Origin: an uncultured Pelagibacteraceae bacterium
GTDB lineage: Bacteria; Pseudomonadota; Alphaproteobacteria; Pelagibacterales; Pelagibacteraceae
Direction: 5' to 3'
Length of the DNA stretch: 64,000 bases
Assembly (NCBI GenBank): GCA_902557995.1
Contig: CACECL010000001.1
Location: 62,001-126,000, forward strand
Shown here: piece after piece, positions 35,445 to 53,425 of the stretch
Numbering within the stretch: position 1 is the first letter of the stretch
How the letters are laid out: the number at the start of each line of letters is the position of its first letter
Notes under the pieces: model-generated
What the model was told of the DNA's origin: nothing
Seen by the model: only the letters and a program-made list of their open reading frames with translations
Database searches by the model: none
Translations under genes and position numbers: made by a program

Positions 35445-36032
35445 TTATTTTGGCTTGATACCCATTTCTTTCATGTCTTGATATCTGTCACCAGTTCTTG
35501 CATGTGCTCTACCACTTGATGCCCCACCAATTGCAATAACAACCTCATCATCGAAGGGCGCATCATGAATAGTAAATTCATGAGTTAGGTAATATGGTCT
35601 CAATCCAGAATCTGTTTTATGCATCATAGGAATTGCAATTTTTGATCCAGCAGGTCCTCTTGTATTTGTAAAACTTAAATAGGAAGTTCCACCAACAGCA
35701 TCTCTAAATTTATTACCAAACCTTAAAGTGTGAATAAAAGCTGAAGCATGTTCTATTTCACCGTTCAGTCCAACTACACCTGCTTTGCCATATGCTAATA
35801 TTTTTTCAGGTGATCCTATTTCTTTAATCAATTCTGGAACAAGTAAATCACCTAGCTTTGGCGCAAGATCTAAAATAGTTGGTCTAAGATCTTCAACAAA
35901 ACCTTGACCATGCCATGGATTTTTAAACACTGCAGCTACTGATACCATTAAAACCGGTTCTTTCGCTTCTTTACCACCTTCAATAAAAGTTTTGTCTACA
36001 AATTTAGTAAATTTTCTTAATTCTAATTTCAT
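35445..36032 (-). CDS. AA_synth (PF06684) family protein
   Basis: Protein of 195 residues with the family features: KEPVLMVSVAAVFKNPW near residue 25, AYGKAGVVGLNGEIEHASA near 100, RGPAGSKIAIPMMHK near 144 and DEVVIAIGGASSGRAHAR near 181. The family was named amino acid synthesis, but I know of no proven reaction. Members are often encoded beside hydrolases and flavin monooxygenases, as here. It overlaps the ThDP-enzyme gene by four bases and precedes the hydrolase by three. Confidence 0.82.
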   Translation of the reverse strand: MKLELRKFTKFVDKTFIEGGKEAKEPVLMVSVAAVFKNPWHGQGFVEDLRPTILDLAPKLGDLLVPELIKEIGSPEKILAYGKAGVVGLNGEIEHASAFIHTLRFGNKFRDAVGGTSYLSFTNTRGPAGSKIAIPMMHKTDSGLRPYYLTHEFTIHDAPFDDEVVIAIGGASSGRAHARTGDRYQDMKEMGIKPK

Positions 36033-37732
36033 TTTTTTATTCTATGTTTGAAACTATCTCTTCTAAAACTGTATAATGCTTTTGGATCTACATCAACATC
36101 TATCACAGATGGCTTATTAGATTTAATTGCTGCTCTTACAGCTTCGCTAATCTCAGAAATTTTTTTTACTTTAAAACCTTTTGCACCATAAAGTTCTGCA
36201 ACTTTATCAAAGGATGGACTGGTAATATCTGCACCTAAATATCTTTTTCCAAAAAAATCTTTTTGGTAAGCTTTTTCAGCACCCCAACTTTTATTGTTCA
36301 TCACAATAGTTGTCGTATTAATCCCATATTCAACAGCAGTGCTCAATTCAGATATTGTCATGCCAAAACCCCCATCACCCATAAGACTAACAACGCTTTT
36401 TTTAGGCTTAGCAACTTTGACTCCAAGACCACATGCAAAAGAAAAACCAACTAAACCAAAATCCAATGGAGTAAATAATGAAGGAGGATCATAATATTCT
36501 AAAGCATCTGTAGCCTGCAAGCATAACGTTCCAGCATCTAGAGTAATTGCTGAGTTTGTTGGTAGCACTTTTCTTAATTGTTTAAATAGTCCTTTTGGTT
36601 GTATAGGAAAATTTGGACCCAAATTTTCTTTATTTCTATTTATCAAATATTCTTTTCTCTCTTTTAAATAAGAGTTAGTCCAATTTTTAACATTTAATTC
36701 AATCTTCTCTTTTTTAATCTCTTCGTAGAGTTGTTTAGTTGCAGTTGCAGCATCCGCGTGTATCTTTACTTTTACAGGAAAATATTTTCCAAGCATTGTT
36801 TTTTCTAGTTCAATTTGAATTATCTTTGCTTGTTTATTTATATTTTCATAGGAGTAAAAAGTTGAATTAAACCCTAAACGTGTTCCAATTGCTAAAATGA
36901 CATCTGCATTCTTAACTAATCTTGATGCTACAGGATTTCCTCTTGGACCCATTTGTCCCGCATTTAATTTATGATCAAATGGAATTGCATCCCCATGACC
37001 TGCTGCTGTAACAATAGGTAAATTGCATAGCTCAGCTAATTTTATTACCTCTTTATATTTAGAATTATACTTTATTCCAGCACCAACAATAATTACTGAA
37101 CATTTTGAGGACCCAATTAATTTTGCAGCTTTTTTGATATTTTCCTTATTTCCTTTTTGTTTGCTCTCATTTGTGAATGATTGTTTTTTAGTATTAATAT
37201 TATAGGAGTTTGAAGCTGCTAATATATTTCTTGGTAAATTTACACAAACTGGTCCTTTTCTAGGTTTCATTGCTAAATTAAAAGCATCACTCATAATTTT
37301 TGGAATTATTTTTGAATTTTTTATAGTCCAAGTTTTTTTTGTAATAGGTTTAAACAAAGACTGTTGATCTAAACCTTGAAATGCATCTTCCATTTTATCT
37401 TTAGTTGAATACGAACCTGCAATTGCAACAACTGGAGAAAAAGCTGCTTTTGCTTGAGCAACTCCTGTAACTAAATTAGTAGCACCAGGTCCGTTTTGTC
37501 CCGCAATAATTACCCCGGGTCTATTGGATGCTCTTGCATAACCATCAGCCATATGTGTGCCAGTTCTTTCGTCTCTGACACCAATAAATTTTATACTTTT
37601 CTCATGATAAAGAGCATCAAACATTTCCATTGTTGCTGAACCAATAAGTCCAAAAACATGCTTTACTCTCTCTTTTTTTAATGATTGAACAGCAGCTTGT
37701 CCGCCGCTAATTCTTTTTCGTCTTTTATTCAC
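36029..37732 (-). CDS. Thiamine-diphosphate enzyme, acetolactate-synthase-like
   Basis: ThDP enzyme of 567 residues in the acetolactate synthase/benzoylformate decarboxylase superfamily. The N-terminal Pyr domain has the activating Glu in FIGVRDERTGTHMADGYARA near residue 55. The central Rossmann domain spans about 200-335, and the C-terminal ThDP motif is GDGGFGMTISE followed by NNKSWG near 450-480. It differs from IlvB in the motif end (NNKSW rather than NNxxLG) and lacks an adjacent small subunit, so it is unlikely to be biosynthetic. The start is GTG overlapping the monooxygenase gene. The likely reaction is decarboxylation or carboligation of a 2-oxoacid. Confidence 0.85.
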   Translation of the reverse strand: MNKRRKRISGGQAAVQSLKKERVKHVFGLIGSATMEMFDALYHEKSIKFIGVRDERTGTHMADGYARASNRPGVIIAGQNGPGATNLVTGVAQAKAAFSPVVAIAGSYSTKDKMEDAFQGLDQQSLFKPITKKTWTIKNSKIIPKIMSDAFNLAMKPRKGPVCVNLPRNILAASNSYNINTKKQSFTNESKQKGNKENIKKAAKLIGSSKCSVIIVGAGIKYNSKYKEVIKLAELCNLPIVTAAGHGDAIPFDHKLNAGQMGPRGNPVASRLVKNADVILAIGTRLGFNSTFYSYENINKQAKIIQIELEKTMLGKYFPVKVKIHADAATATKQLYEEIKKEKIELNVKNWTNSYLKERKEYLINRNKENLGPNFPIQPKGLFKQLRKVLPTNSAITLDAGTLCLQATDALEYYDPPSLFTPLDFGLVGFSFACGLGVKVAKPKKSVVSLMGDGGFGMTISELSTAVEYGINTTTIVMNNKSWGAEKAYQKDFFGKRYLGADITSPSFDKVAELYGAKGFKVKKISEISEAVRAAIKSNKPSVIDVDVDPKALYSFRRDSFKHRIKK

Positions 37733-38898
37733 GAAACTTTTTTTACTTCAGTATCAAAATCATCTTGGAAGTGAGGCATAACTTTCTCTGTGAAAAGTTT
37801 TATACTTTTCATACAATCTTTATGCTTCACACCTGGAAAATTAGACCAAACTTGTAAATTTTGTAAATTGAGTTCAGATTTTAATTCATGAATTTTATCA
37901 ATTACATATTCGGGTGTTCCAAATAACATGTTTCTTTTATGTAAAAATTCATAATTTAATAAATCTAATTTACCTTTTGTCTCTGGTAATTCTTCACCTG
38001 GATCCATATGATTCCCTAAACCTCTCCAATGGCAAACCCATCTCATATAATTTACCATATGTTCACCAGCCTTCTCTTTTGCTTCTTCCATCGTATCTGC
38101 AACAAACATATCTCTCACAAGTGAAACACCTTCACCAAGTGGTATATTTTTCTTTGTTACTTCTGATCTTTTATTTTTATAAGCTTCAAATTTTGGCTTC
38201 AAAGCTTTTACAGTTGGTATCCACATGATAACATTGATGTTATTTTCAGCGGCCCACTCAATCGATCTAATTCCATCAACCACTTGATGAATTGGAGGAT
38301 GTGGCTGTTGATATGGCTGTGGAACAACACTAATTTTTTTCATAGTACTGTCTTCCATATTCATAAATTCTTCACTAGGAGGACTCATATCATGCTGCCA
38401 GACATAATTTGGCGAAGGATAAGTATAAAATTCTCCTTGATGACTGAAAAATTTTTCACTCCATGCTTTTTTTAATACTTCTAAAGTTTCAGCAAATAAT
38501 CTGAAATTTTTAGCCTGATCTTTTAAATCAGCCTCTTTGTTTAAATTTATTGCTTCTCTACCATAGATTCCTCTTGCTACACCCACTTCAACTCTTCCTT
38601 TAGACAATTGATCTAAGGTAGCAATATCTTCAGCTAATCTAATTGGATTGTGAAAGGTAATAACGTTTGCTGCCTGACCTATTCTAATATTTTTCGTTCT
38701 AGCAGCTGCATCTGCACCCATCATCAATGGATTAGTACAAGATTCCATTCCCTCATGATTAAAGTGATGTTCTGTAAACCAAATTGAATTCCATTTATTT
38801 TGATCACAGTATTCTGTGATTTCTTTAGTCTCATCTAACAACTGATGATAAGGTTTGTGTGTCCAGTTTGTGGTGTTACAAAAATAACCAAATTTCAT
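37729..38898 (-). CDS. LLM-class (luciferase-like) flavin-dependent monooxygenase
   Basis: FMN-dependent oxygenase-fold protein of 389 residues in the bacterial luciferase-like family. Recognisable parts are WFTEHHFNHEGMESCTNPL near residue 41, IRIGQAANVITFHNPIRLAEDIATLD around 72-97 (in part), and LSKGRVEVGVARGIYGREA near 100. I place the start at the ATG behind AAAGGAGG (minus strand, 38910-38903), not at an in-frame codon 42 nt upstream. First gene of the five-gene operon, so probably the initiating oxygenation step. Relatives open pyridine, nitrogen-heterocycle or chelate substrates; light production is not implied. Confidence 0.85.
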   Translation of the reverse strand: MKFGYFCNTTNWTHKPYHQLLDETKEITEYCDQNKWNSIWFTEHHFNHEGMESCTNPLMMGADAAARTKNIRIGQAANVITFHNPIRLAEDIATLDQLSKGRVEVGVARGIYGREAINLNKEADLKDQAKNFRLFAETLEVLKKAWSEKFFSHQGEFYTYPSPNYVWQHDMSPPSEEFMNMEDSTMKKISVVPQPYQQPHPPIHQVVDGIRSIEWAAENNINVIMWIPTVKALKPKFEAYKNKRSEVTKKNIPLGEGVSLVRDMFVADTMEEAKEKAGEHMVNYMRWVCHWRGLGNHMDPGEELPETKGKLDLLNYEFLHKRNMLFGTPEYVIDKIHELKSELNLQNLQVWSNFPGVKHKDCMKSIKLFTEKVMPHFQDDFDTEVKKVS

Positions 38899-38906
38899 AA
38901 AGCCTC

Positions 38907-38999
38907 CTTTAAAAGTTAATTTAAAGACGACCGATCCCACTTTCGTAAATCTATGAATTTATCGACGAGTTATGTATCGCTTTATATCCAAACATTATA
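38907..38999 (-). promoter_or_regulatory. Promoter -10 and hairpin leader of the monooxygenase operon
   Basis: On the minus strand TATAAT (38999-38994) would start a leader of about 90 nt. Its 3' part forms CTTTAAA/TTTAAAG (38926-38920 with 38913-38907), which includes the AAAG of the Shine-Dalgarno. The middle holds a second possible stem (around 38941-38962) and is less AT-rich than its surroundings. A regulated leader is possible; no known class is recognised. Confidence 0.3.
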
Positions 39000-39003
39000 A
39001 TTA

Positions 39004-39972
39004 CTAACGCTGATATTCAATAAATTTCTTTAAAGATTTATTAAGAAATTTTTCATAAATTTCACCGTTATTTTTGAATTTACTACCATTCAAAAATGAT
39101 TTGTTCATTTTGAAATCATAGGAAGGTTCAAAGAAAAAAGGAACAGACAGTCTCTTACTTTTATTCCATAAAACTCTGTGATTTGTTGCTTTAAATTTAC
39201 CTTTGCTTAGAAACTCTAATGCCCTTCCCGTATTTACTACTAAAGCATTTTTGTTGAATGGTACATCATACCATTTTTTGTTTTTTCTATTTTGCACTTG
39301 CAATCCACCTTTTCTATCTTGATAGAGAACTGTAAATATTCCACTATCAACATGTGTTTCACATCCAAGAGCAACCCCATCTTGTTTTGATATTTCCACT
39401 GGTTTTGTTTGGTTAGGGTAATAATTAAATCTTAATGTGCTTAATGTTTTTAATCTTGAAAAAGCTTTACCAGAAATATCAGGATTTTTTTTATTAAGTT
39501 TTATTACACTTTTAAACAATGTCTCACTCAATCTATAAATTTTATCAAAATATTTGTTTAAAATGCTTATTGAGCTTTTATTTAAACATTTCCCTAGATT
39601 AAGATGCTCTATGTATTGATTGTTTAGATTTGACGAATATTTTTTAGTTACCTTTAAATCACCTATATCTAAACCTTCTTTTCCATTTACATCATTAGGA
39701 AAATATCCTCTATATAGATTTTTATTTTTTTTATTCCATTTTTTGGGTGCTAATTTCCTCTTTTTGTTATCTGGTAAATTAAAAAATTTATTTCCCACCC
39801 CACATGTTTTTTTAATTACTTTTAAATTAATTCCATGACCTGTAATTTGAAAAAAACCAACTTTGATACAAGCTCTTTCAATTTCTTTAATTGTTTTAAA
39901 TGCTCTCTGAGTTTCAAAATTATTTTTAATTAGTGAAGATATATTGATGGTTGGTATATATGTTTTAGTCAT
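39004..39972 (-). CDS. Isopenicillin-N-synthase-family Fe(II)/2-oxoglutarate oxygenase
   Basis: Cytoplasmic oxygenase of 322 residues. The N-terminal DIOX_N domain has IERACIKVGFFQITGHGI near residue 30. The 2OG-FeII core has the iron ligands in CETHVDSGIFTVLYQD near 206-220 and in ATNHRVLW near 266, with the cosubstrate Arg in RLSVPFFFEPS near 276. It overlaps the EamA gene upstream by four bases. Family members oxidise diverse small molecules and nucleobases; no substrate can be assigned. Very AT-rich and lysine/asparagine-rich. Confidence 0.85.
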   Translation of the reverse strand: MTKTYIPTINISSLIKNNFETQRAFKTIKEIERACIKVGFFQITGHGINLKVIKKTCGVGNKFFNLPDNKKRKLAPKKWNKKNKNLYRGYFPNDVNGKEGLDIGDLKVTKKYSSNLNNQYIEHLNLGKCLNKSSISILNKYFDKIYRLSETLFKSVIKLNKKNPDISGKAFSRLKTLSTLRFNYYPNQTKPVEISKQDGVALGCETHVDSGIFTVLYQDRKGGLQVQNRKNKKWYDVPFNKNALVVNTGRALEFLSKGKFKATNHRVLWNKSKRLSVPFFFEPSYDFKMNKSFLNGSKFKNNGEIYEKFLNKSLKKFIEYQR

Positions 39973-42925: not shown

Positions 42926-44506
42926 TTAATTTAAAATAAATTCGGATGCTCTTTCAGCAATCATTAATGTTGGAGCGTTAAGGTTTCCACTTGTAATTTC
43001 AGGCATTACAGACGCATCAACTACTCTTAGATTTTCAACACCATGAACTTTTAGTTTTTGATCTACAACAGCCATATTGTCTACTCCCATTTTTAAAGTA
43101 CAAGATGGGTGGTAAGCAGTCTCAGCTTTAGATCTGATGTATTCTTCGAATACCTTATTAGTTTGGGCATGTTCTCCTGGTCCAATTTCTTTTCCTGCAA
43201 AAGGCTTCAAAGAGTCTTGTCCTAAAATTTTTCTAGCTACATGAATACATTCTATTGTTTGTTTTAAATCATCCTCATGTTCTAGATAATTAAATTGAAT
43301 TTTTGGATAATCATAAGGGTTTGAGCTGTTTAAAGTTATATGACCTCTACTTTTTGGATGGTTTGGACTTGCATGTAACTGGTAACCATGCCTATCTGGA
43401 TCAACTAATCCATGATCGATTACAAAGGCAGGAAAAAAATGAAATTGAATATTTGGATACTCTCTTTCTGGAGACGATTTACAAAATCCTCCAGCTTCCA
43501 AGAAAGAAGTAGAACAAGGACCACTTCTATTCAAAAACCATTGAATTCCAATTCTAACCATATTTAACTTATTAACGTATGAGTATAAGGTGTCTTTAGT
43601 TTTACATTCTTGCTGAACATAAGTTTCTAAGTGATCTTGTAAGTTTTTTCCAACACCCTCTAAGTTATGAACAACATCAATTCCTTTATCTTTTAAGTGT
43701 TGGCTTGGACCAATTCCAGAAAGCATTAGTAATTGCGGTGAATTAATTGCACCTCCACTTAAAATTACTTCTTTATTGGCATAAATCTTTTCGACTTTAT
43801 TTTTTATTTTTACTTCAATTCCAATTGCTTTTTTTCCATCAAAAATAATTCTTTCAACAAAAGCTTCTGTAAATACTTTAAGGTTTTTTCTTTTTTTAGC
43901 AGGATTTAAATAATACTTAGATACACTTGCTCTCTCTCCTTTATGGATAGTAACATCGTACATTCCAAAACCTTCTTGTTCTTTACCATTCATGTCGTTG
44001 TTTATTTTATAACCAGCTTCACCAGCTGAATCGACAAATGCTTTGAATAAAGGGTTTTTATTTTTAGATTGGTTTACTGGAAGTATTCCACTGCCACCCC
44101 GATATTCATTTTCTCCTTCTGACCATGTTTCAATTTTTTTAAAATAGGGAAGAACTTTTTCATAAGACCAATCTTCCAATCCAAATGATGCCCATCTTTG
44201 ATAATCATTCGGATTACCTCTTACGAATACCATTCCATTATGCGCAGAACATCCACCAATCATTTTTCCTCTAGGACAGAATAATCTTCTGTTATGCAAG
44301 TGAGGTTCTGGTTCTGAATAATATTTGTAGTTATACTTTGGATCATGCATTGTGTATAAAATCGCAAGTGGCATGTTGACTTTCCAGATATCACTGGGTT
44401 TCCCAGCTTCAAATATTGCTACATTGTTTTGATCATTTTCTGTTAATCGATTTGCAAGTACACAGCCTGCACTTCCAGCGCCAATGATTAAATAATCGAA
44501 ATTCAT
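42926..44506 (-). CDS. GMC-family FAD oxidoreductase, choline-dehydrogenase-like
   Basis: Flavoprotein of 526 residues, closely resembling BetA over its length. FAD binding is by YLIIGAGSAGCVLANRL (residues 5-21). The GMC signatures are RGKMIGGCSAHNGMVFVRGN near 88-107 and GGAINSPQLLMLSGIGP near 255. The catalytic His is in ETAYHPSCTLKMG near 468 and the conserved Asn is in GNLNAPT near 511. It may oxidise choline or another alcohol carrying a quaternary ammonium group. It is the last gene of an operon with a thioesterase, a TauD-type and an HD oxygenase, overlapping the latter by four bases. The exact substrate is inferred from context. Confidence 0.86.
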   Translation of the reverse strand: MNFDYLIIGAGSAGCVLANRLTENDQNNVAIFEAGKPSDIWKVNMPLAILYTMHDPKYNYKYYSEPEPHLHNRRLFCPRGKMIGGCSAHNGMVFVRGNPNDYQRWASFGLEDWSYEKVLPYFKKIETWSEGENEYRGGSGILPVNQSKNKNPLFKAFVDSAGEAGYKINNDMNGKEQEGFGMYDVTIHKGERASVSKYYLNPAKKRKNLKVFTEAFVERIIFDGKKAIGIEVKIKNKVEKIYANKEVILSGGAINSPQLLMLSGIGPSQHLKDKGIDVVHNLEGVGKNLQDHLETYVQQECKTKDTLYSYVNKLNMVRIGIQWFLNRSGPCSTSFLEAGGFCKSSPEREYPNIQFHFFPAFVIDHGLVDPDRHGYQLHASPNHPKSRGHITLNSSNPYDYPKIQFNYLEHEDDLKQTIECIHVARKILGQDSLKPFAGKEIGPGEHAQTNKVFEEYIRSKAETAYHPSCTLKMGVDNMAVVDQKLKVHGVENLRVVDASVMPEITSGNLNAPTLMIAERASEFILN

Positions 44507-45039
44507 ATAAGTTTTGAACTTAACAACTTTTCATAGTCATGAATAGATTTCATTTTTATGTCAGTTCTTTTAGCGGCTTCGTCAAACTTTCTGACTAGAA
44601 TTGATGGCTTAAAGTAAGATTTATTCTCAAACTTTTTACTTTCTTTGTCATTTAAAACTCCGCCTTGTAATTTGAGGCTTATTTTTGACGCATCTGATAA
44701 AAAATCAAAATATATTTTGTCTCGAGCCAAATAACGTTTAGCCAAAACATGGTATTTAATTGGCTCAACAATTTTTTGTCCAAAAAATTTTTTTAAATAC
44801 TGATATCCAATATTTTCATGCTCTCCATCTAATTTATTTTTAACTAATTCTTCAGGATCTTCTAAAAGAAAATGACCATAGTCATGAAGTAAACATGCAC
44901 AAATTAAATCATCATTACATTTAGCTTTTTCAGCAAGCATTGCTGACTGAATCATATGTTCTGACATAGTTACTTTCTCACCAATGTACAAAGATTTGTT
45001 ATTTATAAAATTTGAAATGATTTTATAAATTATTTTCAT
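44503..45039 (-). CDS. PhnZ/TmpB-like HD-domain diiron oxygenase
   Basis: Protein of 178 residues in the HD superfamily, matching the small mixed-valent diiron oxygenases. Metal ligands expected from PhnZ are all present: His28, His52-Asp53 (LLHDYGHF), His74 (DGEHENIGYQYL), His97 (YHVLAKRYL) and Asp153. Tyr18 and Glu21 (LYIGE) match the Tyr/Glu pair that marks the phosphonate-cleaving subgroup, and Lys101 is kept. PhnZ splits 2-amino-1-hydroxyethylphosphonate to glycine and phosphate; TmpB makes glycine betaine from the trimethyl analogue. It sits directly after a TauD-family gene, as such enzymes pair with a hydroxylase. Cleavage of a C-P or C-C bond is inferred. Confidence 0.75.
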   Translation of the reverse strand: MKIIYKIISNFINNKSLYIGEKVTMSEHMIQSAMLAEKAKCNDDLICACLLHDYGHFLLEDPEELVKNKLDGEHENIGYQYLKKFFGQKIVEPIKYHVLAKRYLARDKIYFDFLSDASKISLKLQGGVLNDKESKKFENKSYFKPSILVRKFDEAAKRTDIKMKSIHDYEKLLSSKLI

Positions 45040-45042
45040 TTA

Positions 45043-45873
45043 TTATTGTGGATGATCCCCTTCAACAGCTATACGATCCATTACTCTTTCAAAACCAAGC
45101 CCTTTATTTGGATAAAAATCAGCAATAGCATAATGCTGAACACTTCTATTATCCCAAATAGCCACTGCATTTTCGGTCCATTTAAATCTACAGGTAAGAT
45201 CTAATCTTGCCTGATGTTCAAATAAATAATTTAATATCTCTTTACTTTCTTCTTTGTCCATACCAACAATTTCTTTTGTGTAAGTCCAATTTACAAAAAG
45301 AATTTTTTTGCCTGTTTCTGGATGAGTTCTTAAAATTGGATGAGTGTTTGAGTATTCATCCATATTTCCATTACTTTGCATTGCTTTATATTTATCAAGG
45401 AAAAACCCACCTCCAAGTGAAGAATGAACTGCTTTTTTATTTTTAATTTTATTTTTTATCTCTTCTTCTAGGGTCTCCCACGCAAGTTCCATGTTTGAGA
45501 AAACAGTATCTCCTCCAACTGGTGGAATTTTAATTGATTTTAAAATTACAGCTTTAGTTGGTTTTTCGTTATAGCTAACATCTGAATGCCAACCTTCACC
45601 CCATTGTGTTTTTTCTTCAGGCTTTTTAATTATTCTTATTATTTCAGGGAATTCACTTAAACCTCTTACATAAGCATGTGTTTCTAATGGTCCAAATTTT
45701 GAAGCTAGAGCAACATGTTGTTCTGATGTCAAAGGTTGATTTCGAAAAAAAATAACTTTGTGTTCTAATAATAAGTTATTTATTTTTTTAAAATTTTCAT
45801 CTGAAACGTCAGTCAAGTCAATTCCACTTATTTCAGCACCCAATGCTCCTGATAATAATTTTATATCAATCAT
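45043..45873 (-). CDS. TauD/TfdA-family Fe(II)/2-oxoglutarate dioxygenase
   Basis: Dioxygenase of 276 residues, the standard TauD length. The iron triad is His96 and Asp98 (WHSDVSY) with His247 (SVQHYAIADF); the 2-oxoglutarate Arg is in GFERVMDR near 263-267. The N-terminal GAEISGIDLTD and FFRNQPLTSEQH are family hallmarks. It overlaps the thioesterase gene by four bases and lies 3 nt before the HD-oxygenase gene. Taurine desulfonation is possible, but pairing with a PhnZ-like HD enzyme suggests alpha-hydroxylation of a substrate that the HD enzyme then cleaves. Confidence 0.88.
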   Translation of the reverse strand: MIDIKLLSGALGAEISGIDLTDVSDENFKKINNLLLEHKVIFFRNQPLTSEQHVALASKFGPLETHAYVRGLSEFPEIIRIIKKPEEKTQWGEGWHSDVSYNEKPTKAVILKSIKIPPVGGDTVFSNMELAWETLEEEIKNKIKNKKAVHSSLGGGFFLDKYKAMQSNGNMDEYSNTHPILRTHPETGKKILFVNWTYTKEIVGMDKEESKEILNYLFEHQARLDLTCRFKWTENAVAIWDNRSVQHYAIADFYPNKGLGFERVMDRIAVEGDHPQ

Positions 45874-46337
45874 TTTTTAAGTTTTCCAATAATGGATAAA
45901 TTGTCAGAATTAAATTCATTTTTATTTTCATTTATAAAGTCATCCATAATTTTAATTTTTTCATCTTCAAATTCTGTAACTTTTCTTTTACTTAGATCAA
46001 TATAAAGCGCTAACATTTCAATAGTTGCTGATAATTTTTTTGATGATTTTTCAATCATTTCCATCTTGAAATGTAATCTCTTCTTATCATGATCAAAGAA
46101 GGTTAAAACAATTTCAACTTCATCTCCCTCTTTAACTTCACCATCATATGTAGTGTGAGTTTCAACAACCATGGTACTTCTTTGGGTATTCTTTGCAGAT
46201 TTTTCACCCATCTTAAATTTTTCTAGAATTATCTCCCAAGTTTGATCGAAAACTAAGACATAGTAAGCCATGTTCATATGATTATTATAATCAGTCCATT
46301 CTTTTTTGATTGCTTGGTTTGTTATGTGAAAAGACAT
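45870..46337 (-). CDS. Hot-dog thioesterase, probable betainyl-CoA thioesterase of carnitine catabolism
   Basis: Single hot-dog domain of 155 residues. The 4HBT-type start is EWTDYNNHMNMAYYVLVFD (residues 13-31), and the core ends in a VETHTTYDGEVKEGDEVEI strand pair. The same domain is fused to the C-terminus of L-carnitine dehydrogenase in several rhizobia, where it hydrolyses betainyl-CoA to glycine betaine. Here it is a separate gene, divergent from the dehydrocarnitine-cleavage and carnitine-dehydrogenase genes, 47 nt apart. It heads the TauD-HD-GMC operon. The thioesterase fold is clear; the betainyl-CoA substrate comes from context. Confidence 0.8.
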   Translation of the reverse strand: MSFHITNQAIKKEWTDYNNHMNMAYYVLVFDQTWEIILEKFKMGEKSAKNTQRSTMVVETHTTYDGEVKEGDEVEIVLTFFDHDKKRLHFKMEMIEKSSKKLSATIEMLALYIDLSKRKVTEFEDEKIKIMDDFINENKNEFNSDNLSIIGKLKK

Positions 46338-46384: not shown

Positions 46385-47272
46385 ATGAACAACAAGGTAT
46401 TCATATCATGTGCTGTGACGGGGTCAGGAGATACCGCAAGTAAGCATCCAGATTTACCAAAAACACCAGAACAAATTGCTACAGCATCAATTGAAGCTGC
46501 AAAAGCTGGAGCTGCTATTGCTCATATTCATGTGAGGGAGGAAGATGGAACTCCAAGTAGAAGATTAGAATTATATAAAGAGGTAATCGACAGAATTAGA
46601 TCAAGTGATACAGATGTAATATTAAATTTAACAACAGGTATGGGGGGTGATCTTGATATTGGACAAGGTAAAAATCCTTTAGATTTTGGTCCTATGACTG
46701 ATATGGCAAATGTAATGGAAAGAATTGCAAATGCTGAACAATTTCTCCCAGAAATTTGTACTCTAGATGCAGGTACTTTAAATTTTGGTGATAGCTCAGT
46801 AATCACAGTTAATACACCAAATGATTTAAGAAAAGCAGCAAAGAAATTAAAAGAGATAAAAGTTAAGCCAGAAATAGAAGCTTTTGATTTAGGAAACATG
46901 TGGTTTGGTGCGCAACTATATAAAGAAGGGTTATTAAGTGATCCACCGATGTTTCAAATGTGTTTAGGAATTCCATGGGGAGCACCTGCTACAACATTAG
47001 CTATGCAAGCCATGAAAGATATAATGCCAAAAGAAGGTGTTTGGTCAGGGTTTGCAATTTCAAAAAATGAAATGCCATTTGTTGCTCAAACTGTTTTGAT
47101 GGGAGGTAACCCAAGAGTCGGTTTAGAGGATAATTTATATTTATCTAAAGGTAAATTAGCTACTAATGCTCAATTAGTAGAAAAAGCTGTAAGAATAATA
47201 GATGAACTTGGATATACCCCAATGACACCAGCAGAAACTAGAGAAAAATTAAAACTTGTTAAACACAAGTAA
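46385..47272 (+). CDS. cdhC: Dehydrocarnitine cleavage enzyme (BKACE family, DUF849)
   Basis: Zinc-dependent beta-keto acid cleavage enzyme of 295 residues. It transfers the betaine part of 3-dehydrocarnitine to acetyl-CoA, giving acetoacetate and betainyl-CoA. The metal-binding His47 and His49 are in AIAHIHVRE. LNLTTGMGGDLDIGQG near 80, CTLDAGTLNFGD near 123, PEIEAFDLGNMWF near 160 and LCLGIPWGAPATT near 188 match the carnitine-pathway subgroup as I remember P. aeruginosa CdhC. It overlaps the carnitine dehydrogenase gene by one base, which supports the substrate strongly. Confidence 0.88.
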   Translation: MNNKVFISCAVTGSGDTASKHPDLPKTPEQIATASIEAAKAGAAIAHIHVREEDGTPSRRLELYKEVIDRIRSSDTDVILNLTTGMGGDLDIGQGKNPLDFGPMTDMANVMERIANAEQFLPEICTLDAGTLNFGDSSVITVNTPNDLRKAAKKLKEIKVKPEIEAFDLGNMWFGAQLYKEGLLSDPPMFQMCLGIPWGAPATTLAMQAMKDIMPKEGVWSGFAISKNEMPFVAQTVLMGGNPRVGLEDNLYLSKGKLATNAQLVEKAVRIIDELGYTPMTPAETREKLKLVKHK

Positions 47273-48213
47273 TGTCATCAATTAAAAAAGTTGCAATAAT
47301 TGGAACTGGGGTAATCGGAGCAGGGTGGATCATACGTTGTTTGGCTCATAACAAAATTGTTTATGCATTTGATAAAGACATCAAGTTAAAAAATAATTTA
47401 TTATTAGAAATAAAAAGAACTTGGCCATTTGTAAAAAAACTATTTAATAAAAAAAAATTAAATCTAAATAATTTTCATTTTTTTACCTCAATAGAACAAA
47501 CGTTAAAAAACGCAGATTTTATTCAGGAATGTGCAACTGAAAACTATTCTTTAAAAACTAAATTGATGAGCACCATTGGAAAATTTGCAAAATCTAACTC
47601 AATAATTGCTTCAAGCTCATCGGGTTTGTTACCAACGAGAATTTATTCAAGATGTAAAAATCCAGAAAGAGGAATAATTGGACATCCATTTAATCCTGTT
47701 TATTTATTGCCTGCAGTAGAAATTGTTCCAGGCAAAAGAACCTCAAAAAAAAATTTAAATTTGGCTAAAAAATTTTATAAATCAATTTCTATGAAACCAA
47801 TTATGGTTAAAAATGAATTACCTGGATATTTGTCTGACAGATTACAAGAAGCTTTATGGAGGGAAGGGCTACATATTATTAATGAGGGATATGCAACTAC
47901 GGAAGAATTAGATAGAGCAATTGAAGATGGCCCAGGATTAAGATGGTCTTTGATGGGTACATTTTTAACCTTTCATCTTGCTGGAGGAAAAACTGGAATG
48001 AAACATATGTTGGAACAATTTGGACCTGCTTTAAAATTACCATGGACTAAATTAAAGGCCCCTAAGTTATCAAAAAAATTATCTTCTAGACTTATTTCAG
48101 GAACATCAAAACAGGCTAAAGGTAAATCGATTGCAATGATATCTAATATAAGAGACCAGTATTTAGTTGATATTCAAAAATTAAGAAAGAAATATGAAAA
48201 AAAACTTAGGTAA
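47272..48213 (+). CDS. lcdH: L-carnitine dehydrogenase
   Basis: NAD-dependent oxidation of L-carnitine to 3-dehydrocarnitine. The protein has 313 residues with a 3-hydroxyacyl-CoA-dehydrogenase fold: nucleotide motif VAIIGTGVIGAGWIIR (residues 7-22), acidic ECATEN near 85, SSSSGLLPTRIY near 112, GHPFNPVYLLPAVEIVPG near 135 and PGYLSDRLQEALWREGLH near 180. The LRWSLMGTFLTFHLAGG and MLEQFGPALKLPW blocks are specific to the carnitine enzyme and not to true acyl-CoA dehydrogenases. The fused thioesterase of some relatives is absent and encoded separately at 45870. The gene converges on the SDR gene with 1 nt between stops. Confidence 0.9.
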   Translation: MSSIKKVAIIGTGVIGAGWIIRCLAHNKIVYAFDKDIKLKNNLLLEIKRTWPFVKKLFNKKKLNLNNFHFFTSIEQTLKNADFIQECATENYSLKTKLMSTIGKFAKSNSIIASSSSGLLPTRIYSRCKNPERGIIGHPFNPVYLLPAVEIVPGKRTSKKNLNLAKKFYKSISMKPIMVKNELPGYLSDRLQEALWREGLHIINEGYATTEELDRAIEDGPGLRWSLMGTFLTFHLAGGKTGMKHMLEQFGPALKLPWTKLKAPKLSKKLSSRLISGTSKQAKGKSIAMISNIRDQYLVDIQKLRKKYEKKLR

Positions 48214-48214
48214 A

Positions 48215-49003
48215 TTAATCATTTCTTTCAGTGTGACCATCTACAGAAATTACCTGCCCTGATACCTTACTTGAATCGTCTGAAATTAAAAATGCGCACA
48301 TCTTTCCTATATCTTCTTCAAGAACCCATTTTTTCATTGAACTCATTGAAATAAATTCTTTTTCAACTGTTTTAGAGGAAACTTTTGTAAATTTTGCTTT
48401 ATCTCTTATTACTCTTTTCATTCTTTCACCTTTTATTGAACCAGGGCAAACTGCATTAACTCTTATGTTGAATTTCCCAAGTTCCATTGCCAAAGTTTTG
48501 GTAATTCCAATGATTGCCCATTTGCTTGCTGCATAAGGGGATCTTAAAGGAAAACCTAGTATACCAGCAGTTGATGAAATATTTATTATTGATCCATTTC
48601 TAGACTTTTTAATTAAAGGTATGGCTTTCTTAGTAAAATAAAAATGACTATTAACATCTACTTGAATGGTTCTTTCCCAATCCTCAGATTTAAGTTTTTC
48701 TAGTGACCCGATTGGTCCAGCAATTCCAACATTATTTATTAAAGCATCGATTTTTTTTGTTTTCTTATTTATTTTTTTAAATAAATCTGAAACTTGATTT
48801 TCATCTGAGGCATCACATGCATAGGAGAACAATCTTTTATTTTTTAAAGGATGTTTATTAAGTTTATTTAAAGATTTAGTGTCAATATCACAAAGATAAA
48901 CATATGCTCCACGTGCAAGACATAATTTAGCTGTAGCTAAACCTATCCCAGACGCTCCTGCAGAAATTATTATTTTTTTATTCTTTAATGATTGGTTAAC
49001 CAT
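48215..49003 (-). CDS. Short-chain dehydrogenase/reductase
   Basis: Classical SDR of 262 residues. Cofactor motif is SAGASGIGLATAKL (residues 14-27), with an Asp after the second strand (YLCDIDT) favouring NAD. NNVGIAGP near 89 and the catalytic Ser-Tyr-Lys are seen as NISSTAG and YAASKWA near 157-161. VCPGSIKGERMKRV and the C-terminal SGQVISVDGHTERND complete the fold. It starts 3 nt after the proV stop and so belongs to the betaine transporter operon. It may act on a hydroxylated quaternary amine or on 3-hydroxybutyrate released from carnitine; neither is proven. Confidence 0.85.
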   Translation of the reverse strand: MVNQSLKNKKIIISAGASGIGLATAKLCLARGAYVYLCDIDTKSLNKLNKHPLKNKRLFSYACDASDENQVSDLFKKINKKTKKIDALINNVGIAGPIGSLEKLKSEDWERTIQVDVNSHFYFTKKAIPLIKKSRNGSIINISSTAGILGFPLRSPYAASKWAIIGITKTLAMELGKFNIRVNAVCPGSIKGERMKRVIRDKAKFTKVSSKTVEKEFISMSSMKKWVLEEDIGKMCAFLISDDSSKVSGQVISVDGHTERND

Positions 49004-49006
49004 TAA

Positions 49007-50032
49007 TTAAGATTTTGTTAGTGATGTCTGTAGTTCTTTATTTGATATATAACCTTTTACATTTCCACTTTTATCAACAACCTCACAGTTTGAATTTGAA
49101 CAAACAATTTGAGGTAAAAATTCTTCTATAAATTGATCTTCATTAACTTTTATTAAATTAGATTTATCAATATCATTAGCTTCCTCTGTTTTTTTCATAA
49201 CTACTTTGGCTTTAATTACTTTTGCTCTATTTACATCTTTAACGAATGCTTTCACATAATCATCTGCTGGGTTCATTATAATATCTACTGGCGTTCCTAC
49301 TTGAACTAACTTACCAGCATTTAATATTCCAATATGATCCCCAAGTCTTAATGATTCATCTAAATCATGAGTAATAAATACGATTGTTTTTTTCAATTCT
49401 GATTGAAGATCAAGTAATTGTTTTTGCATATCACTTCTAATTAAAGGATCTAATGCACTAAAAGCTTCATCCATTAACATTATATCACTATCTGTAGCTA
49501 AAGCTCTTGCTAAACCTACACGCTGTTGCATACCACCTGATAATTGATTAGGAAATTGATTTTCAAAACCAGTTAAGCCAACAGCTTCAATTTTTTCCAT
49601 AGCAGTTCTATCTCTTTCATCCTCAGGTTTACCCTGCATTTCCAAACCATAACCAACATTTTGCAAAACAGTTTTGTGAGGAAATAAACCAAATCTTTGA
49701 AATACCATGCTCATTTTATGTCTTCTAAAATCAATGAGCTGTTCTTTATTGAATGACATTACATTTGTTCCTTCAACTAAAATTTCCCCATCAGTTGGAT
49801 CAATCAGTCTGTTAAGATGTCTAATTAGTGTAGATTTTCCTGATCCTGAAAGACCCATACATACAAACGTTTCGCCTTCCTCAATATTCAATGAAACATT
49901 ATCAAGTCCAACTGTATGTCCGGTTTGTTCTAAAACCTCTTCTTTGTTGGCACCATCTTTTACCATCGGCATTACAGACTGAGGATTGTTTCCAAAAATT
50001 TTGTAAACATTTTTAATCTCTATTTTAGACAT
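49007..50032 (-). CDS. proV: Glycine betaine/proline-type ABC transporter ATPase
   Basis: ATPase of 341 residues, ProV/OpuAA type. The family's N-terminal YKIFGNNPQ and MVKDGANKEEVLEQTGHTVGLD precede Walker A GLSGSGKST near residue 59. Signature LSGGMQQRVGLARAL is near 164 and Walker B LMDEAFSALDP near 187. The C-terminus contains a CBS-like region from about residue 275 (SNLIKVNEDQFIEEFLPQI), shorter than the usual two CBS repeats and possibly an ionic-strength sensor remnant. It overlaps proW by one base. Confidence 0.92.
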   Translation of the reverse strand: MSKIEIKNVYKIFGNNPQSVMPMVKDGANKEEVLEQTGHTVGLDNVSLNIEEGETFVCMGLSGSGKSTLIRHLNRLIDPTDGEILVEGTNVMSFNKEQLIDFRRHKMSMVFQRFGLFPHKTVLQNVGYGLEMQGKPEDERDRTAMEKIEAVGLTGFENQFPNQLSGGMQQRVGLARALATDSDIMLMDEAFSALDPLIRSDMQKQLLDLQSELKKTIVFITHDLDESLRLGDHIGILNAGKLVQVGTPVDIIMNPADDYVKAFVKDVNRAKVIKAKVVMKKTEEANDIDKSNLIKVNEDQFIEEFLPQIVCSNSNCEVVDKSGNVKGYISNKELQTSLTKS

Positions 50033-51057
50033 TATTTACCTTTCTTTTTTTCTGGAGCTCGTCTTTCTTGTAAAGTTTCTCCGTAAGATTGAGTTATTCT
50101 ATCAAGCACGATAGCTAAAAGCACTATCGCAATTCCTGCTTCTGCAGCTCTTCCAACATTTAGCTGCTGTAAACCTAGCAGAACTTCATCACCTAAACCT
50201 CTTGTTCCAATCATTGATGCTATAACCACCATAGATAAAGCCATCATTGTACATTGGTTTATACCTTGCATAATATTGGGTAAAGCTAATGGCATTTGTA
50301 CACCCCATAATTTTTGTTTTTTACTTGCACCAAATGCATCTGCTGCTTCAATTACCTCTTTATCTACAAGTCTTATTCCTAGATCTGTTAGTCTGACCAA
50401 AGGAGGTACTGCATAAATAAATGTAGCAATAATTGCTGGAACAGCACCTAATCCAAAAAGCATTATTCCAGGAATTAAATATACAAATGCTGGAATGGTT
50501 TGCATTAAGTCAAGAACTGGGAGTATTTTGTTTCTTATCCTTTCAGCTCTAGACATTAAAATTCCGACAGGCATTCCAAATACCAAACAAAGAAAAATAC
50601 TTATTAACATGATGGCTGTGGTTTCGATTGCTTTTTGCCAAAATATTGGATGTAAGAAGCCAATAAAGAAAGTGCAAAAACCAACAAATACAGTTGTTCT
50701 TATTTTTCTTCCACTTGCAAAATAAGCTATAACTGTAACCCCTAACACTACAGCTGGCCATGGAGCTAATATTAAAAAATTTTTTAAAGCCATCAGCATT
50801 GCTAGTAAAAAATTATTTATTGCTTCAAAAATAAAACCATAAGTTTCATTTAATTTTTTAAAACCAACATTTATCCACTTCATTAATGGAAGGTCTAACC
50901 ATTTGGGCCATTTTTGTAGCCAAGAAAAATCGTTTAGTAATTCACCTACATTTTCTGGCTTTCTTTTTGAAGAGCTATAACTAATTATTAGTAGCCAAAC
51001 AAAAAAGACTAAAAGACCTATATTAAAAAATAGTTTTTTATTTTTTTTTATATCCAT
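50032..51057 (-). CDS. proW: Glycine betaine/proline-type ABC transporter permease
   Basis: Inner-membrane permease of 341 residues in the ProW/OpuAB family. Six or seven hydrophobic segments follow a long N-terminal part containing WLDLPLMKWINVGFKKLNETYG. Family signatures are FGMPVGILMSRAERIR near 187, PVLDLMQTIPAFVYLIP near 208 and IEAADAFGASKKQKLW (ATPase docking) near 265. I start at the ATG at 51057. An upstream TTG-initiated extension would read through a hairpin and a 20-bp tandem repeat, whose period is not a multiple of three. Confidence 0.9.
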   Translation of the reverse strand: MDIKKNKKLFFNIGLLVFFVWLLIISYSSSKRKPENVGELLNDFSWLQKWPKWLDLPLMKWINVGFKKLNETYGFIFEAINNFLLAMLMALKNFLILAPWPAVVLGVTVIAYFASGRKIRTTVFVGFCTFFIGFLHPIFWQKAIETTAIMLISIFLCLVFGMPVGILMSRAERIRNKILPVLDLMQTIPAFVYLIPGIMLFGLGAVPAIIATFIYAVPPLVRLTDLGIRLVDKEVIEAADAFGASKKQKLWGVQMPLALPNIMQGINQCTMMALSMVVIASMIGTRGLGDEVLLGLQQLNVGRAAEAGIAIVLLAIVLDRITQSYGETLQERRAPEKKKGK

Positions 51058-51063
51058 TAGATG

Positions 51064-51103
51064 AATTTTTAATCTTAATAATAAATTTTTAATCTTAATA
51101 ATA
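51064..51103. repeat. Perfect 20-bp tandem duplication between proX and proW
   Basis: The unit AATTTTTAATCTTAATAATA occurs twice in direct tandem (51064-51083 and 51084-51103) without mismatch. It fills the spacer between the post-proX hairpin and the proW start codon. It has no coding sense. It may be slippage-generated, may set spacing for translation or may hold an RNA-binding site. Confidence 0.9.
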
Positions 51104-51129
51104 AAAGAGCCCTCGAAAAAGGGCTCTTT
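51104..51129 (-). terminator. Hairpin after the betaine-binding-protein gene
   Basis: AAAGAGCCCT (51104-51113) and AGGGCTCTTT (51120-51129) form a ten-pair stem with a 6-nt loop. In the minus direction it lies 17 nt after the proX stop and is followed by a T-rich but interrupted tract. Partial termination or 3'-end protection of the proX message before proW is likely. Confidence 0.7.
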
Positions 51130-51146
51130 CAAAATTTAATTATAGA

Positions 51147-52163
51147 TTACAACGCAGCAGTAACTTTAGAAGCTACATCAGCTGGAACCCAGCTTTTCCA
51201 CATTGATTCTGTTTTTAAAAACTCCTTAGCAGTTAATTCCATGTCACCATCCGACTCATCTTCGTAGAATGCCAACATTTTGTTAACGGTAGCTGTTGGA
51301 ATAGTGTATTTCTTTAAAAACTCAGTTTCAGCTGGGTGAGCTTTTGCCCAATCAGTTAAAACAGATTTTGTTAAAGCCATATCTCTATATTCACAAGCAC
51401 AACTTTTTTTATAAGCATCAGGACCGTTTGCTTTAATATCTTCTACAACTGCAGACATTTTATTCCAGCAATCAGAATCAAAAGCAGGTTCACTTAGTCT
51501 AACAAGGTCAACTTTTCCCATTAAACCAGTTGGTGCCCAGTAGTAAGTAAAGATAGGTTTTTTCTTAGCGAAAGCACCAGCAATAGCAGCATCTAATGCA
51601 CCACCAGAACCTGGGTCAAAGTTAGTATAGTATTTATCTAAACCATACTCTATTTGTTTAACCATGTTAACTGTGTAACAAGTCCAACCAGAAATACAGC
51701 TAGTCATTCTACCTTTAGATGGATCTTCAGGATCTTTAAATAGCGCAGCTATTTTTGGATCTTTCATATCTTCTACAGATTTTAAGTTGTATTTATCAGC
51801 TGTTGCCTTATCAACATAAAACGCTTGTTGAGAGTCTGGTGTGTTCACTCCAATATTTTGAATTGTACCAGCTTGTTCATGTGGCTCGTAGTTAGCAATA
51901 ATATTGTCATACCAAACTTCAGTAATAACATCTAACTGCTTATCATAGTGTGCAGCCATGATAGGTGTAGTACTTCCTTTAGTTACTGAAACCTCACAAC
52001 CATAGCCTTTTTCAAGAATAAACTGAGTGATAGCAGTATGAATGTTTGCACTACTCCAGTCGAAATCTCCCAATCTAGCCTTACAGTCACCTGCATTAGC
52101 ATTACTAACAACTAAAGATGATAAAAGGAAAATTGAGATAGTTAATCTTTTTAAAAACTTCAT
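51147..52163 (-). CDS. proX: Glycine betaine-type ABC substrate-binding protein (OpuAC family)
   Basis: Periplasmic receptor of 338 residues. A signal peptide MKFLKRLTISIFLLSSLVVSNANA precedes the mature protein (shown in two halves: MKFLKRLTISIF and LLSSLVVSNANA). The OpuAC fold shows WSSANIHTAITQFILEKGYG near 36 and several Trp/Tyr residues suitable for a quaternary-amine aromatic box (EVWYDNI, YYWAPTG, SGWTCYT). Paired cysteines are present. A good Shine-Dalgarno (AAGGAG) precedes the ATG. It is the first gene of proX-proW-proV-SDR and probably binds glycine betaine, carnitine or relatives. Confidence 0.92.
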   Translation of the reverse strand: MKFLKRLTISIFLLSSLVVSNANAGDCKARLGDFDWSSANIHTAITQFILEKGYGCEVSVTKGSTTPIMAAHYDKQLDVITEVWYDNIIANYEPHEQAGTIQNIGVNTPDSQQAFYVDKATADKYNLKSVEDMKDPKIAALFKDPEDPSKGRMTSCISGWTCYTVNMVKQIEYGLDKYYTNFDPGSGGALDAAIAGAFAKKKPIFTYYWAPTGLMGKVDLVRLSEPAFDSDCWNKMSAVVEDIKANGPDAYKKSCACEYRDMALTKSVLTDWAKAHPAETEFLKKYTIPTATVNKMLAFYEDESDGDMELTAKEFLKTESMWKSWVPADVASKVTAAL

Positions 52164-52294: not shown

Positions 52295-53425
52295 GTGAGT
52301 GCAATTTCTAAACTTGAAAAAAATTCTACTTATCTAAAAGTTATTTGGAGTGATGGCGAAGAGAGCAAATTCAATTATCTTTGGTTGAGAGATAATTGTC
52401 CAACAGCTCATGACAAAGACTCAAGACATCGAATGTTTAATATATTGAATGTATCACAAAATATTAATCCAAAAAAATATTCTCTAAGTGCAGACGGAAA
52501 ATTAGAGATTGAATGGAGTGAAGGAGATCATACAAGTTATTATGACCCTAAATGGCTAAGAGAAAATTGTTATACTTTAAAACATAAACAAAAGTATATT
52601 TCTCCCTATAAACTTTGGGACAGTTCACTTGAAAAAAATTTAAAGTCTATTCAAATTGATCATGACGAAATTATAAGTTCTGATGACGGATTAATTAAAT
52701 GGTTGAGACTTTTGCATCACACCGGGATAGCAATAGTGAAGAATGCACCAGTTGAAAAAAATTCAGGATTAAATGTATTAAATCGAATAAGTCATACTCG
52801 TGAAACATTTTTTAAAACACCTTTTGAAGTAATTAACATTCCAAAACCAAATAATTCGGCATACACAGCTCATGCATTGAGAAATCATATGGATTTACCT
52901 TGGTTTGAAAATCCTCCAGGATATCAATTTTTACATTGTTTGGTAAATTCTGCAAAAGGAGGAGACTCTTCTGCAGTTGATGCTTTTGCAGTGGCAGACT
53001 ATTTAAGAAAAAATGAAAAGGAAACTTTTGATATTTTAGTTAATACTCCATTGAAATTTAGAGATAAAGATTATACCCAAGAAGCAATTAGAAGTGTTCA
53101 TGGAACAGCAATTTCACTTACAAAAGATGGAGATTATAATGATATTCGATACAGTATTGCAACTTTAGATGCACTTGATTGCCACCCAGATGTAATGGAT
53201 TCAATTTATAAAGCACATCATCGATTTGGTAATCTGTTACATGACACTAAATTTCAAATTAATTTTAGATTAGAGCCAGGTGATATTTTTTCATTTAATA
53301 ACAGAAGACTGCTACACGGCAGAACGGAATTTGATCCAAACTCAGGACACAGGCACCTTCAAGGTTATTATATGGATAGGGACGAAATAATTGGTAGATT
53401 AAATTATCTTAAGCAACAATTATAA
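52295..53425 (+). CDS. Gamma-butyrobetaine dioxygenase-like Fe(II)/2-oxoglutarate enzyme
   Basis: Protein of 376 residues with the two-domain layout of gamma-butyrobetaine hydroxylase: an N-terminal DUF971 domain (about 1-100, FNYLWLRDNCP) and a TauD-type core. The iron triad is His198 and Asp200 (NHMDLPWF) and His341 (LLHGRTEF); QFLHCLVNSAKGGDSSAVDAF and the HLQGYYMDRDEI end match the family closely. Of the three N-terminal zinc cysteines of characterised enzymes only Cys35 remains, so the zinc site is lost. It probably makes L-carnitine for the neighbouring carnitine dehydrogenase; a TmpA-like hydroxylase of trimethylaminoethylphosphonate is the main alternative. Start GTG at 52295. Confidence 0.82.
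   Translation: MSAISKLEKNSTYLKVIWSDGEESKFNYLWLRDNCPTAHDKDSRHRMFNILNVSQNINPKKYSLSADGKLEIEWSEGDHTSYYDPKWLRENCYTLKHKQKYISPYKLWDSSLEKNLKSIQIDHDEIISSDDGLIKWLRLLHHTGIAIVKNAPVEKNSGLNVLNRISHTRETFFKTPFEVINIPKPNNSAYTAHALRNHMDLPWFENPPGYQFLHCLVNSAKGGDSSAVDAFAVADYLRKNEKETFDILVNTPLKFRDKDYTQEAIRSVHGTAISLTKDGDYNDIRYSIATLDALDCHPDVMDSIYKAHHRFGNLLHDTKFQINFRLEPGDIFSFNNRRLLHGRTEFDPNSGHRHLQGYYMDRDEIIGRLNYLKQQL

Follow-up and report, generated by a model that had tools for sequence, protein, structure and literature searches.

A TauD-class dioxygenase encoded beside a PhnZ/TmpB-type HD protein in a SAR11 carnitine/betaine island: a possible phosphonate route to glycine betaine

Introduction

Two enzyme pairs, each consisting of a hydroxylase and an HD oxygenase, have been described for the cleavage of carbon-phosphorus (C-P) bonds. 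PhnY, which is of the PhyH type, and PhnZ convert 2-aminoethylphosphonate to glycine and phosphate. TmpA, a 2-oxoglutarate (2OG)-dependent hydroxylase, and TmpB of Leisingera caerulea convert trimethylaminoethylphosphonate to glycine betaine and phosphate. Here, a comparable gene pair was analyzed in a 64,000-nt stretch of DNA (referred to as the window; positions 62,001 to 126,000 of contig CACECL010000001.1, assembly GCA_902557995.1) from an uncultured Pelagibacteraceae bacterium. The pair encodes a TauD-class Fe(II)/2OG dioxygenase and an HD protein and lies within a carnitine/betaine island. We read it as a variant of the hydroxylase and HD-oxygenase pathway with a TauD-proper hydroxylase, which would supply glycine betaine, and give this reading about an even chance of being correct.

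For the hydroxylase, the closest characterized enzyme is E. coli TauD, in which taurine is bound by His70 and Arg270 and its amine is placed by Asp94, Asn95 and Ser158 (PMC9304159). For the island, a glycine-betaine island of Arctic SAR11 has been described with ABC genes, BBOX(1), carnitine dehydrogenase, BKACE, thioesterase, BBOX(2) and choline dehydrogenase (PMC12421898). This gene list matches one of our loci (L279), with TauD at the place of BBOX(2) and HD absent. No HD protein is among the 17 genes listed there, and the terms "HD domain" and "phosphonate" do not occur in the main text of that paper.

Results

The HD protein resembles TmpB and PhnZ

Four packed genes were found on the minus strand in the order thioesterase, TauD, HD and GMC (Table 1). 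The thioesterase and TauD genes overlap by 4 nt, TauD and HD are separated by 3 nt, and HD and GMC again overlap by 4 nt. The four are probably co-transcribed. The adjacency and 3-nt spacing of TauD and the 178-residue HD protein had been reported in the first-pass annotation, and the coordinates of the open reading frames (ORFs) agree with it.

The ligand set H...HD...H...H...D of the HD protein is complete (His28, His52, Asp53, His74, His97 and Asp153), and the YxxE loop is present as Tyr18 and Glu21, each found in 106 of 107 aligned rows. All residues named in the first-pass annotation could thus be located, and they correspond to the pattern given for PhnZ and TmpB (PMC8177086). The ligands as well as Lys101, Ser118, Gln125 and Arg150 vary in at most two of the 107 rows. 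In the PDB, the protein matched TmpB (8.2e-31) and PhnZ (3.7e-27), and a search with the profile gave these two alone; TmpB is the nearest sequence with 43% identity compared to 34% for PhnZ. The predicted model has the PhnZ/TmpB fold; the structure comparison comprised 16 sequences picked from HD loci. The PDB matches and the predicted fold support a grouping with the diiron HD oxygenases, as first proposed, and not with the phosphohydrolases.

The score against the Phn-HD model TIGR03276 was 162.9 and thus below the cut-off of 214.6, which is also missed by a true TmpB locus (L055, 203.8). NF052439 gave a score of 136.1 (cut-off 300), and Pfam assigns the protein merely to the HD domain. At positions 24, 25 and 29 (numbering of the window protein) the residues are T, M and M in the TmpB structure and N, Q and S in PhnZ, and the window protein reads as TmpB. 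All 34 loci tagged with TauD and/or GMC have T24 together with M29, as do 23 of the 33 with a TmpA-type neighbor and 4 of the 37 others, a distribution that is to be taken as a trend and not as a test, the rows being related.

Compared to TmpA/TmpB, the pair shares the combination of a 2OG hydroxylase and an HD oxygenase, the ligands, the YxxE loop, the fold, the three residues and the betaine setting, whereas the hydroxylase is TauD-proper and the HD protein remains below the TmpB cut-off. With PhnY/PhnZ it has the HD fold, the ligands and the two-enzyme logic in common, but it differs in the three residues, the partner type and the lower HD identity.

An HD tree was calculated without the window's own loci (L001, L005 and L078) and the HD2 loci L031-L034; the 104 loci include at least two duplicates, since L055 repeats L121 and L070 repeats L116. 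The window-type HD proteins form one clade of 40 rows (SH-aLRT 99), in which a group of five rows (support 83) is sister to the remaining 35, the window among them.

At least two HD types occur in SAR11. A different HD oxygenase type, approximately 40% identical to that of the window, lies near PhnE (above cut-off) and PhnD-type transporter genes (L169, 9551-15085), and both types are present in one genome (G732). In addition, in a second SAR11 pair (L053, 10824-12475; also L031 and L032), the gene of a TmpA/GBBH-group dioxygenase, which scores 333.9 bits against TmpA (cut-off 400), overlaps that of a shorter HD protein, and the match of the latter to PhnZ spans only about 40 residues.

The gene order is conserved in SAR11

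The neighborhood survey covered 80 named SAR11 loci, the best 80 of 269 HD relatives; the near relatives are Pelagibacteraceae, Pelagibacterales or Candidatus Pelagibacter. The order TauD-HD-GMC was found in 76 of these best 80 loci, and the pair is thus conserved across SAR11, whereas its dissociation in all related genomes had been named in the first-pass annotation as a refuting outcome. The other four are two loci with thioesterase-HD-GMC without TauD and two at a contig edge beside HD. Within the fetched stretch, BKACE was present in 63 and the thioesterase in 77 loci. The first-pass observation is more than chance, given the PDB matches to TmpB and PhnZ and the order kept in 76 loci.

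Among the 40 HD genomes, a GMC orthologue (at least 72%) was identified in 38 and a TauD orthologue, sometimes in pieces, in 32. BHMT-like and DMGDH-like genes lie upstream of TauD in some SAR11 genomes. In a sample of 197 family genomes with TauD called at 65% identity or more, 28 contained TauD (five in pieces) and 23 contained HD: both were found in 18, HD only in 5, TauD only in 10 and neither in 164 (Fisher 2e-14, uncorrected for kinship).

Outside the order, no TauD match was detected in the approximately 1.5-kb flanks of 58 HD-family loci (56 distinct; three with shorter flanks), and 31 of the 58 have a TmpA-type neighbor. In two non-SAR11 alphaproteobacteria (G1008 and G923; loci L178 and L179), TmpA-TmpB directly precedes GBBH-, BKACE- and carnitine-dehydrogenase-like genes, an arrangement that, judged by these gene assignments, is the classical pair inside a carnitine operon.

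The dioxygenase is TauD-proper

The iron triad of the window TauD (His96, Asp98 and His247) is intact and was correctly numbered before. The protein is 36% identical to E. coli TauD and scores 232.2 against the taurine dioxygenase model NF007104, below the cut-off of 313. No match to the TmpA model NF049936 was obtained at 0.001, and Pfam gives PF02668 alone, without the GBBH-like N-terminal domain.

Besides the triad, the Arg and Thr binding 2OG and the positions His70, Val102 and Arg270 are shared with E. coli TauD. The positions of His70, Val102, Thr126, Arg266 and Arg270 were unchanged in all 25 distinct TauDs of SAR11 HD genomes, whereas Tyr73, Asp94, Asn95, Phe104 and Phe206 were replaced by Val, Trp, Gly, Tyr and Tyr in all 25. 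Glu204 is replaced by Trp in 22 of them and by Ser in the other 3. Of 19 outside relatives, all have Gly95, 17 have Phe or Trp at 94, four have Val102, one has Tyr206 and none has Trp204. The loss of the amine anchor thus marks a wider group, the local set being Val102/Tyr206, mostly with Trp204. Aromatic residues that could hold a trimethyl group occur in DfmD, BBOX and TmpA (PMC9296572), and by analogy the window-type TauD may hold such a group in the same way. The TauD tree was built without 16 of the 19 outside relatives and five duplicate rows. In two genomes TauD is in two pieces with a stop (G073:C5:844-1664; G745:C5:48384-49206), either as a pseudogene or through a sequencing error.

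According to the first-pass annotation, a TauD-type partner would be new. This calls for caution, since GBBH/TmpA-group enzymes, such as the window GBBH and a TmpA/trimethyllysine-dioxygenase-like protein (enzyme X), likewise carry the Pfam TauD domain. By its domain matches, the distinctive partner here is the short TauD-proper enzyme without the GBBH-like N-terminal domain. No TauD-proper partner of an HD oxygenase was seen in two reviews (PMC8177086, PMC10574752), the main text of which does not contain the word "TauD", and a TauD-HD pair was not found in the parts consulted of PMC12421898 or PMC9381506.

Alternative hydroxylases in HD genomes

True TmpA was identified in 6 of the 40 HD genomes. 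In two sister-group genomes (G042 and G082) HD is divergent from a TmpA above cut-off (533.6 and 541.7 bits, cut-off 400). In two others (G057 and G130) the HD gene occupies this locus but TmpA is missing; TauD is encoded elsewhere, flanked by a DMGDH-like gene and GMC in G057 and at a contig end in G130. The best TmpA match in the window's own genome (G000; 0.99 Mb, 77% complete) has 273 bits.

Eight HD genomes have no TauD (G069, G123, G684, G729, G659, G042, G082 and G006). TmpA or enzyme X was present in seven of these (TmpA 2, X 5), compared to 5 of the 32 with TauD (TmpA 4, X 1; Fisher 0.0003). Enzyme X was found in 6 of 40 HD genomes, namely five TauD-less genomes with thioesterase-HD-GMC and G043. 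The five form a single HD clade; therefore, the link between missing TauD and an alternative hydroxylase amounts to two or three independent cases. Enzyme X adjoins pyruvate dehydrogenase genes (L159, 9081-10175; L160; L161).

Island layout

The carnitine/betaine island recognized in the first-pass annotation is present with BKACE, L-carnitine dehydrogenase-like protein, thioesterase, three-gene ABC transporter and GBBH-like protein (Table 1). Several of these neighbors score under the curated family cut-offs. The GMC protein also remains below that of TIGR01810 betA (680.9, cut-off 732.1), and the GBBH-like dioxygenase below that of NF049936 TmpA (273.1, cut-off 400). The SDR oxidoreductase is retained in many SAR11 islands.

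Table 1. Features of the carnitine/betaine island in the window.
Feature	Position	Strand	Evidence
GMC oxidoreductase, choline-dehydrogenase-like	42926..44506	-	NF002550 748.9, above cut-off 605
PhnZ/TmpB-type HD protein, 178 aa, predicted mixed-valent diiron C-P-cleaving oxygenase	44503..45039	-	Profile and PDB matches, fold
TauD-class Fe(II)/2OG dioxygenase, 276 aa, predicted C1 hydroxylase of a trimethylammonium phosphonate	45043..45873	-	PF02668 204.6 bits
4HBT thioesterase, likely betainyl-CoA thioesterase of carnitine breakdown	45870..46337	-	PF13279; first of four packed genes
BKACE	46385..47272	+	PF05853 310.5 bits
L-carnitine dehydrogenase-like	47272..48213	+	NF005471 352.4, below cut-off 414
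SDR oxidoreductase of the island	48215..49003	-	NF009466 222.8, cut-off 222
ProV/ProW/ProX-like betaine-type ABC transporter, three ORFs	49007..52163	-	Named from sequence reading and the matching island of PMC12421898
GBBH-like dioxygenase with GBBH-like N-terminal domain	52295..53425	+	TIGR02409 319.5 (cut-off 414.75), PF06155

Adjoining the island, window positions 35445-39972 contain ALS-like, LLM-like and small conserved ORFs, a 2OG oxygenase (PF03171, 39004-39972) and two EamA-like transporters, in an order mostly kept in other SAR11 genomes. Extra cassettes with a CitE/RipC-like lyase or a class II aldolase occur between BKACE and the thioesterase (L166, 9427-10284; L279, 6882-7604).

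Discussion

In the proposed pathway, the TauD-class enzyme would hydroxylate carbon 1 of 2-trimethylaminoethylphosphonate, standing in for TmpA, and the HD protein would then cleave the C-P bond, yielding phosphate and glycine betaine. Glycine betaine would also be formed in two separate branches, likely from choline by the GMC enzyme and likely from carnitine by the set of BKACE, dehydrogenase and thioesterase. It could be used by the BHMT- and DMGDH-like proteins, whose genes adjoin the trio in some other members of SAR11. The first-pass annotation had suggested cleavage of a phosphonate or other betaine-like substrate to glycine betaine, with the thioesterase and the GMC enzyme in the same transcript. 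A TmpB-like role of the HD protein is supported, as an inference, by the TmpB-type residues by the first ligand, the sister HD beside TmpA and TmpA-TmpB before carnitine genes in the two non-SAR11 genomes. The thioesterase, in contrast, fits carnitine breakdown and not the phosphonate step, because it matches the C-terminal part of a bifunctional carnitine dehydrogenase (65.8 bits against NF005716 carnitine 3-dehydrogenase, which has a cut-off of 592; match to its residues 346-477).

A number of observations weigh against this pathway. The HD protein does not reach the cut-off of the TmpB equivalog NF049941 (154.1, cut-off 300), and its clade is not placed with the TmpB of the PDB in the tree (backbone support 43). 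Loss of the amine anchor together with an aromatic residue at 94 is, as described above, common in other TauD-family proteins. Nor is the pairing obligatory, since this HD is missing from 10 of 28 TauD genomes and TauD from 5 of 23 HD genomes. In eight of the ten TauD-only genomes an intact TauD occupies the same slot of the island, with GMC directly after it; in G178 TauD lies elsewhere, and in G126 the locus breaks off at a contig end. Their nine full-length TauDs all keep the catalytic residues, with Ser at 204 in seven, and are spread over more than one place in the TauD tree. A strict TauD-to-HD pathway would strand a dead-end product in these genomes unless another enzyme consumes it, and the second SAR11 HD type was found in only two of the ten. 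Conversely, the five HD genomes of one clade have thioesterase-HD-GMC without TauD. TauD, HD and TmpA coexist in four genomes; therefore, TauD is no simple replacement of TmpA. Finally, a phosphonate-type binding protein above cut-off was present in only 5 of 40 HD genomes, so that uptake would likely be by another route.

These distributions bear on an alternative in which TauD and HD act in parallel and not in sequence. TauD would hydroxylate a sulfonate betaine (e.g., N,N,N-trimethyltaurine) next to the sulfur, giving sulfite and betaine aldehyde, which GMC could oxidise, and a TmpA/GBBH-family hydroxylase would feed HD. The slots with TauD-GMC or HD-GMC alone and the retained anion clamp of the sulfonate enzyme are consistent with this model, and all 40 HD genomes contain TmpA itself or sub-cut-off TmpA-group enzymes (GBBH, others). 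On the other hand, TauD directly before HD is the usual order, co-occurrence is strong, true TmpA is as rare as stated above, and a narrow literature search found no publication on microbial trimethyltaurine breakdown. Because of the TauD-only genomes with TauD before GMC and the four genomes with all three enzymes, parallel action is still considered a serious if less probable explanation.

Alternatively, the same two-step chemistry could act on 2-aminoethylphosphonate, its mono- or dimethyl forms or methylphosphonate, giving glycine, methylated glycines or formate. PhnZ-type pathways on such substrates have been described (PMC10574752), and the scores of HD against PhnZ and HMP-type models come close to that for TmpB; nevertheless, residues 24, 25 and 29, the nearest PDB sequence and the location among carnitine/betaine genes speak against another phosphonate, which is considered improbable. 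Cleavage of a C-C bond in a hydroxylated phosphorus-free betaine, with TauD making the hydroxyl and HD acting as MIOX does on myo-inositol, is more doubtful still, as MIOX lacks the YxxE loop (PMC8177086) and the residues common to HD, PhnZ and TmpB are invariant. That HD is an ordinary phosphohydrolase located in the island by chance is very improbable, even though Pfam reports only the HD domain and relatives are labelled "predicted HD phosphohydrolase" in one source; the PDB matches and the fold argue otherwise.

SAR11 is the most abundant group of heterotrophs in the surface ocean (PMC12636525). In a survey that treats PhnZ as a 2-aminoethylphosphonate enzyme, Pelagibacterales account for 45% of the marine phnZ sequences (PMC9381506); the window-type HD, falling under the TIGR03276 cut-off, may or may not be counted there. 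If HD forms glycine betaine from a trimethylated phosphonate, counts of marine phnZ may in part assign sequences wrongly or overlook them, and betaine and one-carbon metabolism would be supplied directly from a C-P source. More tentatively, and with less confidence than in the pathway itself, SAR11 may have re-tooled a taurine-dioxygenase scaffold into a hydroxylase of quaternary-ammonium phosphonates, interchangeable with TmpA around a shared HD oxygenase, so that phosphonate breakdown would belong to the betaine supply of the carnitine island, beyond phosphate scavenging.
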